From the NCBI GenBank assembly GCA_017469955.1, contig JAFUFJ010000020.1, forward strand, positions 85,174-149,173: a stretch of DNA of 64,000 bases. The letters are read 5' to 3'. Positions 1,923-63,822 of this stretch are shown here, one piece after another. A program made the position numbers and the translations under genes. The notes below the pieces were generated by a model, which saw only the letters and a program-made list of their open reading frames with translations, did no database searches and was not told the origin of the DNA. Each line of letters starts with the position of its first letter. Position 1 is the stretch's first letter. Source of the stretch: Prevotella sp. Lineage in GTDB: Bacteria > Bacteroidota > Bacteroidia > Bacteroidales > Bacteroidaceae.

Positions 1923-2011
1923 GCCCTTTCCCGTCTGTACATCTGCCATGTATGCTCCATACATCATGCTGGTATGCTTCATACACCATAGATGTACAGG
2001 CATGAAAGGGC
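1923..2011. repeat. Family-1 palindromic repeat, copy a
   Basis: Nested inverted arms: GCCCTTTC (1923-1930) with GAAAGGGC (2004-2011), and TGTACATCT (1936-1944) with AGATGTACA (1990-1998). The centre holds TGTATGCTCCATACAT and TATGCTTCATACA, the core of a family seen seven times in this window. It occupies the middle of the gap between the divergent antiporter operon and the LysR gene; apart from the two promoters nothing else is visible in 1660-2161. Confidence 0.75.
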
Positions 2012-9381: not shown

Positions 9382-9415
9382 AGAGGGACGGGAGCCTGCT
9401 TCCGCCCCTCTTTTC
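9382..9415 (+). terminator. Rho-independent terminator after the tandem barrel genes
   Basis: GAGGGACGG pairs with CCGCCCCTC (one bulged base) and is followed by TTTTCTTT. It lies just downstream of the second barrel gene. Confidence 0.6.
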
Positions 9416-9512
9416 TTTACCCTCAACCCTTCACTCCAGCCACAAAAACGCCACATTCCCGACCCTTCTGTACATGAAAGGCCGGAGATGTTTTCGAGAA
9501 AGCTAAGACTTT

Positions 9513-9600
9513 AGCCCGAGAAGTCTATGGGTTATCAGTAAGAAAGCTATCCTTTCTCACCCAGAACTCTATGAGTTCTCGGGCTGAAAGGATAGCTTTC
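9513..9600. repeat. Interleaved inverted repeat A-B-A'-B'
   Basis: Arm A AGCCCGAGAA (9513-9522) pairs with A' TTCTCGGGCT (9576-9585), and arm B GAAAGCTATCCTTTC (9542-9556) pairs with B' GAAAGGATAGCTTTC (9586-9600), all perfectly. The order A-B-A'-B' means the two stems interlock rather than nest. It sits between convergent genes. The B motif also occurs beside family-1 palindromes elsewhere in the window. Confidence 0.75.
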
Positions 9601-9624
9601 TCAGGCATCGGGCTCAGCGTTCGC

Positions 9625-11493: not shown

Positions 11494-11593
11494 TTTCGTT
11501 GTTCTTCTTGATGCATTATCCTGCCTTTCTTGATGCGTTTCGTTGCTTTTTTTGATGCATTCTCCTGCTGTTTCCGATGATGTCAGGACCGCT

Positions 11594-14533: not shown

Positions 14534-14603
14534 CGAATAAAATGAGAAATACGAACTCTTTTCTTCATCAAAACATGGATTGTCGGCCAAGACGCTGCAT
14601 TGT

Positions 14604-14678
14604 CACAGCGCAATAGATGATGTTTTGCTGGGCAAAAGATGAACTATTGGTAGGCAAAACATCATCTATTGCGCTGTG
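14604..14678. repeat. Family-2 palindromic repeat, copy 1
   Basis: Perfect 25-base arms at 14604-14628 and 14654-14678, built on CAATAGATGATGTTTTGC, around a 25-base centre that contains a decayed third arm (GGCAAAAGATGAACTATTGG). Two relatives lie at 39237-39297 and 48246-48308. It sits between the menB promoter and the end of the next operon. Confidence 0.85.
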
Positions 14679-14712
14679 AATCCAGCCCTTTCTGCCCGAA
14701 AAGAATCTGGGG

Positions 14713-17490: not shown

Positions 17491-17592
17491 GCGGGCATAC
17501 ACGGCACATGTATGGAGCATATTCCTAAGGTGTATGCCTCGTACACATAAGATGTACGGAGCATACCAGCCACAGGTATGCCACAGGTATGT
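17491..17592. repeat. Family-1 palindromic repeat, degenerate copy b
   Basis: Contains TGTATGGAGCATA, GTGTATGCCTCGTACAC and AGATGTACGGAGCATACC, the family-1 words, but without long perfect arms. It fills part of the 17321-17827 gap. The rest of that gap holds the operon promoter and a terminator and shows no gene. Confidence 0.6.
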
Positions 17593-22270: not shown

Positions 22271-22360
22271 TTCATACATGCCACATGTACACCCCATACA
22301 TGTCGCGTGTACGGTCCATACATGTGGCGTGTATGGAGCATACCAGGCGCATGTACGACG
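22271..22360. repeat. Family-1 palindromic repeat, copy c (in a 5' leader)
   Basis: ATGCCACATGTA and TACATGTGGCGT form inverted arms around CCCATACATG, followed by GTGTATGGAGCATACC. It lies in the predicted leader of the DUF6078-like gene. The rest of 22234-22586 holds only the two divergent promoters. Confidence 0.65.
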
Positions 22361-28707: not shown

Positions 28708-28793
28708 CATACACCTGCCTGGTATGAAGCATACACCATAGATGTATGCTCCGTACACCTAAGGAATATCAATCGTACACCTTAGATGTACGG
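28708..28793. repeat. Family-1 palindromic repeat, copy d
   Basis: Contains GGTATGAAGCATACACC, AGATGTATGCTCCGTACACC and CGTACACCTTAGATGTACGG, the family-1 words, in the gap between divergent EamA and lysS genes. Other than two promoters the 28571-28911 gap holds nothing else visible. Confidence 0.65.
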
Positions 28794-35433: not shown

Positions 35434-35499
35434 AGCCTTTTCGGCACGAGCAGCCCTCCTTGCGAGGCTGATTAGGAAGGCATTAGCGGGAGAAAGCTA

Positions 35500-35596
35500 T
35501 CCATTCTCATCCGTACATCATAGATGTATGAAGCATACCAGCAAGATGTATGGAGTGTACATCTATGATGTACGGATGAGAATGGACAGTTTTTTT
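35500..35596 (+). terminator. Family-1 palindrome, copy e, serving as terminator
   Basis: Two perfect 29-base arms (35500-35528 and 35558-35586) around a 29-base loop that contains GAAGCATACC and AGATGTATGG. The right arm is followed by CAG and seven T. It lies 66 bases after the GH127 stop, between convergent genes, so the family-1 element itself is the likely terminator. It carries the GAGAAAGCTATCC-like word in its left flank. Confidence 0.85.
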
Positions 35597-39150: not shown

Positions 39151-39236
39151 AACAGCCACCCTTCTGCCGTAGAAATGCTTGCCAGATTGACGTTTCTGCC
39201 TGTTTTTCTAACGCACATTCCCAAGTCTTCATCGAA

Positions 39237-39297
39237 CAATAGATGATGTTTTGCCGGGTAAAAGATCATCTGTTGCCCGGCAAAATATGATCTATTG
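39237..39297. repeat. Family-2 palindromic repeat, copy 2
   Basis: CAATAGATGATGTTTTGCC followed by two complementary copies, AAAGATCATCTGTTGCC and GGCAAAATATGATCTATTG, so the first arm can pair with either. The rest of the 39151-39543 gap shows no gene or clear promoter. Confidence 0.8.
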
Positions 39298-39543
39298 CTT
39301 GCTGAACCGACAGACTTCAAGTCGACATCGACGGCGTATGCGCGCGAAAAAGGATGGGAAACTTCCGATGAAAAGTGCCTCCGGCCAGCCTGATGGTCGA
39401 TGCTTCCTTGCCACGGCAAGCAGCAAACGAAGGCGAGAACGAGGTGTTAAATAAACATAAATCTCAGCCGTCAACTGTCTCAAACCGCCATTTCATGCGT
39501 ATTATATATAGATGTACCTGGAATAATAACCGTTGACTACTAT

Positions 39544-42502: not shown

Positions 42503-42599
42503 CTGCCCTTTCAAGGTCGTACATCTATGATGTATGGACTGTACCAACGAGATGTATGAAGCATACACCTTAGATGTACGACCTTGAAAGGGCAGTTTT
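42503..42599 (+). terminator. Family-1 palindrome, copy f, serving as terminator
   Basis: Perfect 24-base arms (42503-42526 and 42572-42595) around a centre with TGTATGGACTG and TGTATGAAGCATACACC. The second arm runs straight into TTTTA. It sits between the third barrel gene and convergent rsgA. Confidence 0.85.
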
Positions 42600-48155: not shown

Positions 48156-48245
48156 GGCGTCTGCATGAGAAATTTTCACCGAAAGCCTATGGGTTATCCC
48201 GGCCGTTCCATCAATTTCTCATGCAGAACGATGTGGGTTGTGGGA

Positions 48246-48308
48246 GCAATAGATGATGTTTTGCCGGGCAAAAGATCATCTATTGCTCGGCAAAACATCA
48301 TCTATTAC
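48246..48308. repeat. Family-2 palindromic repeat, copy 3
   Basis: Three arms: CAATAGATGATGTTTTGCC, then AAAAGATCATCTATTGC, then GGCAAAACATCATCTATT; the first can pair with the second (short hairpin) or third (long hairpin). It lies in the 47821-48356 gap, otherwise filled by the acyltransferase leader and promoter. Confidence 0.85.
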
Positions 48309-48356
48309 CGGATGAAGGCAATGGGATGAGAAGGAAAAACGGTATCGAAACGGGTA

Positions 48357-58744: not shown

Positions 58745-58790
58745 AGGTGGAACCTGGGAATTGTGCCTGTAAAGGCTATCCTTTCACGGC

Positions 58791-58853
58791 CGTACATCTC
58801 AGGTGTATGCCTCATACATGCCGTTGGTATGCTCCATACATCTGAGATGTACG
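58791..58853. repeat. Family-1 palindromic repeat, copy g
   Basis: CGTACATCTCAG (58791-58802) pairs with CTGAGATGTACG (58842-58853); the loop holds GTATGCCTCATACATG and GTATGCTCCATACATC. It lies between convergent genes with CGAGAAAGCTGC directly after. Confidence 0.8.
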
Positions 58854-58866
58854 CCCGAGAAAGCTG

Positions 58867-63672: not shown

Positions 63673-63690
63673 AACCGAAGAATTCACCAA

Positions 63691-63822
63691 CATCTTCCCT
63701 ATTATCATACGACTCCTTCCCTTTTATTATATGACATCTTCCCTATTATCATACAACTCCTTCCTTATTATTATATGACTCCTTCCTTATTATCATACGA
63801 ATCCTTCTTTATTATTATATAA
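63691..63822. repeat. Six-copy 22-bp tandem repeat
   Basis: Exactly six 22-base units, from CATCTTCCCTATTATC onward. Odd units end in ATTATCATAC(G/A)A and even ones in TTATTATAT(G/A)A, so the array is also three copies of a 44-base higher-order unit. It lies between the stop of the double-TonB gene and the next ATG, 39 bases ahead of the latter. Confidence 0.9.

Follow-up and report, generated by a model that had tools for sequence, protein, structure and literature searches.

The window examined here, a stretch of 64,000 nucleotides from a Prevotella sp. contig, carries a set of short repeat arrays dispersed among its genes. An initial annotation described seven palindromes of ~90 bp, and the sequence words that it listed are present at the given coordinates in all seven. 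These copies lie between genes as stated, the mechanical open reading frames that overlap those at 1923, 17491 and 22271 probably having over-long starts. The copies are not simple palindromes, as each is an array with a 22-bp period composed of alternating inverted half-sites. The finding is real and larger than first stated, and this family (F1) is one of several in the genome. The F1 unit is TGTAYG-N3-CRTACA-N7, repeated in tandem every 22 bp, and because the hexamer and the inverted hexamer alternate in each unit, the dyad axes are 11 bp apart. The features of the window are listed below.

1923..2011, unstranded: F1 array, half-sites 1936-1998, arms partly matched
9496..9602, unstranded: F3 array, GAGAAAG / GAGTTCTC words with 11-bp axes
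11505..11568, unstranded: short non-palindromic array, Tandem Repeats Finder period 22, 2.9 copies, 9% indels
14603..14679, unstranded: F2 array, architecture like F1, half-site GCAAAA
17491..17592, unstranded: F1 array, 8 half-sites at 17496-17580, arms unmatched
22271..22360, unstranded: F1 array, 8 half-sites at 22273-22357, Tandem Repeats Finder period 22, 3.9 copies
28708..28793, unstranded: F1 array flanked by divergent genes
35493..35593, unstranded: F1 array, half-sites 35512-35574, long matched arms followed by seven T, convergent genes on either side
39228..39306, unstranded: F2 array, half-site GCAAAA
42499..42599, unstranded: F1 array, half-sites 42518-42580, best-matched arms, detector score 6 (below the threshold of 7)
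48244..48311, unstranded: F2 array, half-site GCAAAA
55325..55474, unstranded: array with axes every 11 bp, placed in F3 solely for its resemblance
58781..58863, unstranded: F1 array, half-sites 58791-58853, flanked by convergent genes
63690..63820, unstranded: non-palindromic tandem array, 5.7 copies at period 22, the only occurrence in its own assembly

Phased arrays across genomes

Arrays were identified with a detector that takes no account of the letters themselves and rates local self-complementarity at axes a set distance apart, for odd-axis palindromes only; its thresholds (7 or 8) were set after the window had been seen. At threshold 7, the window contains 11 arrays at a spacing of 11 bp and 7 at 22 bp (twice 11), and none at spacings of 5-10, 12-21, 23 or 24 bp, while scores on 20 Markov shuffles peaked at 4-6. 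Five of the 11 arrays belong to two other families, F2 (n = 3) and F3 (n = 2), with sequences unrelated to F1. The common properties are an intergenic position and either an 11-bp dyad spacing or an exact 22-bp tandem period.

The F1 family itself is strongly amplified. With up to one mismatch allowed, the window holds 14 occurrences of TGTAYGNNNCRTACA where 0.36 would be expected; none of 100 shuffles contains as many as 14. In the source genome (G000; 2.26 Mb, 22 contigs), the 28-base pattern TGTAYG-N3-CRTACA-N7-TGTAYG has 58 exact matches and 190 at up to one mismatch, compared to 0 for a reversed-pattern control, so the genome-wide search that had been proposed does yield further copies of a dispersed intergenic family. 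Near-identical repeat copies (184 bp, 98%) are found on different contigs. Because this assembly is only 76% complete, absence from it is provisional. The nearest relatives of this genome by lysS are only about 82% identical, and the exact pattern had no match in 300 other genomes drawn from the family. At up to one mismatch it occurs in 17 of 398 genomes of the genus including the source, five of the 17 by a single match; in this draw G649 has 128 matches and G501 has 91, each with its own inner letters. A search of related Prevotella, also suggested at the outset, matched the four-hexamer F1 pattern in 20 stretches belonging to four public MAGs; their titles all read Prevotella sp. or Prevotellaceae, in agreement with the genus presumed at the outset.

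The same architecture recurs with other sequences. At threshold 7, arrays spaced at 11 bp were detected in G501 (10 in 194 kb), G667 (11 in 157 kb) and G649 (2 in 23 kb), in stretches mostly picked around matches, and in G639 (7 in 100 kb), G342 (2 weak arrays in 100 kb), G495 (2) and G499 (3), in stretches that were not. Any one spacing other than 11 and 22 bp gave 0 to 2 arrays per genome: 2 at 9 and 2 at 12 in G501; 2 at 9, 1 at 21 and 1 at 23 in G667; 1 at 12 in G649; and 1 at 21 in G342. Arbitrary 20-kb stretches from 20 Prevotella genomes, which were not picked around matches and overlap the previous set for G639 and G342, contained at threshold 8 a total of 13 arrays at 11 bp, distributed over 8 stretches, together with 2 at 9, 1 at 12 and 6 at 22 bp. 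Fifteen stretches of other Bacteroidota (the usable ones of 20; 285 kb, one stretch being short) gave no arrays at this threshold, and 50 kb of E. coli gave none at a spacing of 11 bp. A 420-kb sample of G380 contained 51 arrays at 11 bp, one at 12 and thirty at 22.

The GCAAAA pattern, at up to one mismatch, was found in 90 of 277 Prevotella genomes with 1 to 904 matches each (61 in the source genome). Its reversed control, AAAACG-N3-CGTTTT-N7-AAAACG, outnumbered the pattern in G490, G577 and G429 (135, 31 and 36 matches) and nearly equaled it in G531; the excess in the first three suggests another array family of the same 6-3-6-7 format.

A phage origin was considered and rejected. The exact four-hexamer F1 pattern had no match in a viral collection, in which a shorter F1 pattern matched six stretches and the GCAAAA pattern two, and few of these were positive by the detector: L263 and L269 carry an array at the match, L262 carries a weak array elsewhere, and the other five carry none. 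The array in L263 (IMGVR_UViG_2876634834_000001, positions 9389-9466) is a 22-bp phased array with a score of 14 in a contig filed as viral, which is possibly a prophage with host DNA.

The 22-bp period and its possible origins

The period is exact. In the pooled autocorrelation, lags 22 and 44 stand at 0.67 and 0.65, compared with 0.32 for lag 21 and 0.34 for lag 23, and one array pattern in G639 has 296 matches with a 22-bp period and 0 with a 23-bp period. The arm dyads of four window copies are in register with their own array (axis scores 4-6 of 8). In G639, all but one of 38 framed arrays measure exactly 89 bp, and a leader, array, half-unit and tail are common to 34 copies, many of these loci having been retrieved through pattern matches. 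In G380, 40 copies, chosen for being well formed among 58 anchor matches (of which some overlap), align over 115 columns with no gaps. In the source genome, two composites of adjoining F3 and F1 arrays (L051:2496-2863 and L055:6742-7087) hold both families in one 11-bp phase; as they are homologous, they count as one case, and the sole gap in their alignment of 346 bases is 22 bp.

Some additional features of the G639 elements are recorded here. In 26 stretches (L133-L137, L174 and L222-L241), the linker orientation of the arrays differed between the two arms of the chromosome, with 14 forward and 3 reverse before 1.48 Mb and 4 and 9 after it (p=0.008). The elements are flanked by palindromic boxes of the TGTATATTTATGCA type, which we take to resemble ARG boxes, and none of the 39 boxes found over 520 kb is more than 130 bp from an array. 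A flanking motif proposed from this genome, TAA-N5-TGA-N3-TCA-N5-TTA, was dropped, with 6 occurrences in G639 and 0 in G380.

We tentatively favor an explanation, drawn from the sequences themselves, in which the arrays are operator-like sites where proteins sit next to each other at intervals of two helical turns. It draws on the exactness of the period and its independence of sequence, on the one indel of unit size, on half-sites that change almost without compensation, and on the placement of the arrays, which shows no bias in gene context and avoids genes: 4 of 125 array midpoints fall inside long open reading frames (from a crude gene caller), with 81-88% of bases coding. Each 22-bp unit would represent two half-sites in opposite orientation (X-N7-X'-N3), so that consecutive units would face the same side of the helix, separated by two turns at about 11 bp per turn. 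These sites would be read by one or several DNA-binding proteins with genes at other places in the chromosome; the proteins would bind next to one another, and we infer that once bound they hold each other along the array, that is, bind cooperatively. The resulting coat would cover or bend the intergenic DNA. The repeats presumably spread passively as non-coding cassettes, and the arrays would gain or lose whole 22-bp units. A scan of 118 of the 169 neighboring proteins (mainly long ones were omitted) found no protein family in more than three of them and provided no candidate for the binding protein.

Palindromy and period can be separated, and this argues against the protein-site explanation in its simplest form. 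Tandem Repeats Finder reports a period of 22 also at non-palindromic sites in the window (11505 and 63694), and the array at 63690-63820 has no second copy in its own, 76% complete assembly. Of the intergenic tandem arrays, those with period 22 make up 4 of 5 in the window, the remaining one having 44, and 21 of 42 across 18 Prevotella stretches taken arbitrarily. Their share is 30 of 74 in G639 (period 44 adds 9), 45 of 56 in G380, 9 of 24 in G667 and 11 of 33 in G501; in the pooled G342, G495 and G499 stretches period 22 accounts for 7 of 46 and is exceeded by period 14 (8). In most of the Prevotella samples, no other intergenic tandem period is as frequent as 22. Periods of 7, 14 and 21 are also common in those three pooled stretches. 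The constant feature is thus the 22-bp spacing, across unrelated sequences in one genus, and not palindromy. As the period is kept by non-palindromic arrays, a single dimeric binder does not explain it.

For the same reason, the main rival explanation is a mutational one, in which an enzyme of Prevotella would create or lengthen tandem duplications by 22 bp at a time, in any sequence, with palindromy and dispersal following later. This account, which we regard as somewhat unlikely, is consistent with the predominance of period 22 among low-palindromy intergenic arrays (11 against 3 for the next period in the 18 Prevotella stretches, 31 against 17 in the other Prevotella samples), with its presence in an array that lacks a second copy, with the indel of one 22-bp unit between the composites and with its occurrence in 0 of 5 intergenic arrays of other Bacteroidota. 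However, the members of a family are dispersed together with their arms and leaders, which would call for copying over a distance as well, the strong palindromy and the common register of F3 and F1 are left unexplained, and no such enzyme was found.

Pairing, dispersal and gene context

The half-sites vary almost without compensation, and this bears on the choice between sites for side-by-side proteins and a folded nucleic acid, in which a transcript or single-stranded DNA would form long hairpins serving as a terminator, an RNA stabilizer or the target of some transposition enzyme. For 48 hexamer pairs from four genomes compared with permuted columns, one pair was above expectation (N3 pair 1/15 in G000, 47 of 73 against 39.7 expected, p about 0.01), two were below and the rest were as expected. 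Independent protein half-sites are expected to give this result and a selected stem is not. The spacers are less uniform, and their pairing counts in part against the protein-site explanation, with an excess at N7 pair 8/12 in G000 (56 of 92, 38.9 expected) and 9/11 in G649 (24 of 34, 17.7 expected). Deficits are seen in G000 (7/13 of N7 and 7/9 of N3), in G483 (8/12 of N7 and 7/9 of N3) and in G501 and G649 (8/12 of N7 in each).

The outer arms were initially described as differing between copies yet remaining self-complementary, with compensatory change or arm-templated rewriting as the suggested cause. With shifts of up to 3 allowed, this is strongly apparent for the copies at 42503 (20 of 24) and 35500 (18 of 24), but the other five score 14 (1923), 10 (58791), 9 (17491), 8 (22271) and 7 (28708), as compared to 9.9 (sd 2.7) for arms swapped between copies. 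Among 27 distinct F1 arrays of the source genome (mean 10.7), strong self-matching of the arms is confined to 2, with a moderate level (13-15 of 24) in another 7, and own-arm means in G501, G649 and G483 are slightly below swapped-arm means. Some of 17 G501 copies have visible inverted ends with complementary arms of differing letters, as judged by eye. The suggestion therefore remains applicable to the arms of a minority of copies and does not extend to the dyads, with their excess in one of 48 hexamer pairs.

A folded form is nonetheless suggested at individual loci. The long matched arms at 42503 and 35500 are followed by four and seven T, respectively. In G380, unit 1 is the reverse complement of unit 3 in 32 of 40 copies, and the stem between them has 92.3% of cells paired and 5 pairs changed on both sides, which favors a fold-back structure in that element, but most of this signal comes from a single word swap, and the other 8 copies lack the match. 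Units 2 and 3 of these 40 copies always contain two different seven-base words, one each, in either order. The Rfam 15 covariance models had no match in the window at gathering score, and an exact 22-bp period is not required by a hairpin. Gene context shows no bias: the 36 assignable of 46 arrays were situated between divergent (9), tandem (16) and convergent (11) genes, relative to 62, 125 and 50 gaps (chi-square p 0.43), so that arrays between divergent genes are as frequent as expected and a terminator or 3'-end function was rejected as a general role. We consider folding unlikely as the general explanation.

Sites for side-by-side proteins would still have to be dispersed, and it is conceivable but quite doubtful that dispersal is all there is, with the arrays as passive MITE-like cassettes moved in trans by some transposase, for which they would be binding sites or cargo, and with no function for the host. 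The leader-and-tail elements conserved in 34 copies in G639 and those of about 200 bp in G380, the inverted ends of some G501 copies and the near-identical copies on different contigs are consistent with such cassettes. On the other hand, no target-site duplications were noticed in flanks read by eye, the 25 most frequent of 180 protein families in the 118 scanned neighbors include no transposase, and the array lacking a second copy obeys the same period.

The initial assignment to REP/BIME elements mobilized by a RAYT (Y1 HUH) transposase is highly improbable: the arrays are small intergenic palindromes of high copy number and Y1_Tnp occurs in G649, G495, G499, G504 and G473, five of the 11 further array-bearing genomes searched, but it is absent from the array-rich G501 (98% complete), G667 (100%) and G639 (99%, one contig) as well as from G000, G483 and G622 (74-81%) and G634, and GTAG/CGTC tags occur at chance level in 4 of 26 distinct source-genome arrays (about 6 expected, about 0.23 per array). 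A linked RAYT, which had been proposed as a check, was seen neither in the source assembly nor among the 25 most frequent neighbor families, and a Y1 gene in the missing quarter of G000 would not rescue this assignment for G501, G667 and G639.

There is also a broader reading, which we regard as less probable than the protein-site explanation. Prevotella would possess a genus-specific, sequence-independent 22-bp ruler, in the form of a filament of protein or of an enzyme, by which intergenic arrays are built, copied or maintained in exact two-turn steps whether palindromic or not, and F1-F3, and probably the PINSR repeat considered below, would be products of it. Dispersed bacterial repeats usually take their definition from their sequence. 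In these arrays it is the spacing that stays constant while the sequence varies freely, and this holds over many species of the genus, with several families in each genome. Unrelated repeats of this abundant gut, rumen and oral genus thereby collapse into one question, namely what measures 22 bp in Prevotella, and an answer would bring to light either a novel protein, chromosome-coating or regulatory, or a novel mechanism of tandem duplication.

Relation to described repeats

The literature searched gave no account of a 22-bp ruler common to unrelated sequences. Plasmid iterons and ARG boxes are tandem sites bound by dimers about two helical turns apart, with the binding protein known. The arrays described here differ in occupying many loci with many unrelated sequences and in having no known protein. 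They resemble REP/BIME elements with RAYT (PMC3733652) as small dispersed extragenic palindromes and differ, to the extent of the description there, in their tandem 22-bp period, in lacking the tetranucleotide tag and in their abundance in several genomes without a Y1 transposase.

The closest named repeats are BrickBuilt and PINSR. BrickBuilt is a MITE minisatellite of Porphyromonas gingivalis with strong matches in P. gulae (Klein et al., PMC4596501), and its intergenic, dispersed tandem units (1 to 22.8 copies) between a leader and a tail are organized like the arrays here. As described in that source, it has a 23-nt unit in direct repeat and IS5-type terminal inverted repeats, and the period here is 22. 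The same account recalls 22-nt repeats noted earlier in P. gingivalis W83. PINSR, the P. intermedia/nigrescens group-specific repeat, is intergenic, is taken as non-coding and is 188 bp long, with 177 and 184 copies in one Prevotella clade (Naito et al., PMC4755523). It is thus like the window arrays in being intergenic and amplified in Prevotella; F1 has other sequences and is shorter. The portions of that description available to us report no period, palindromy or kinship to other Prevotella repeats and state no terminal inverted repeats, and in neither account, to the same extent, is a phase shared by unrelated sequences mentioned. Judged by description, the G380 element, with its leader, 22-bp array and tail in about 200 bp, may be PINSR.
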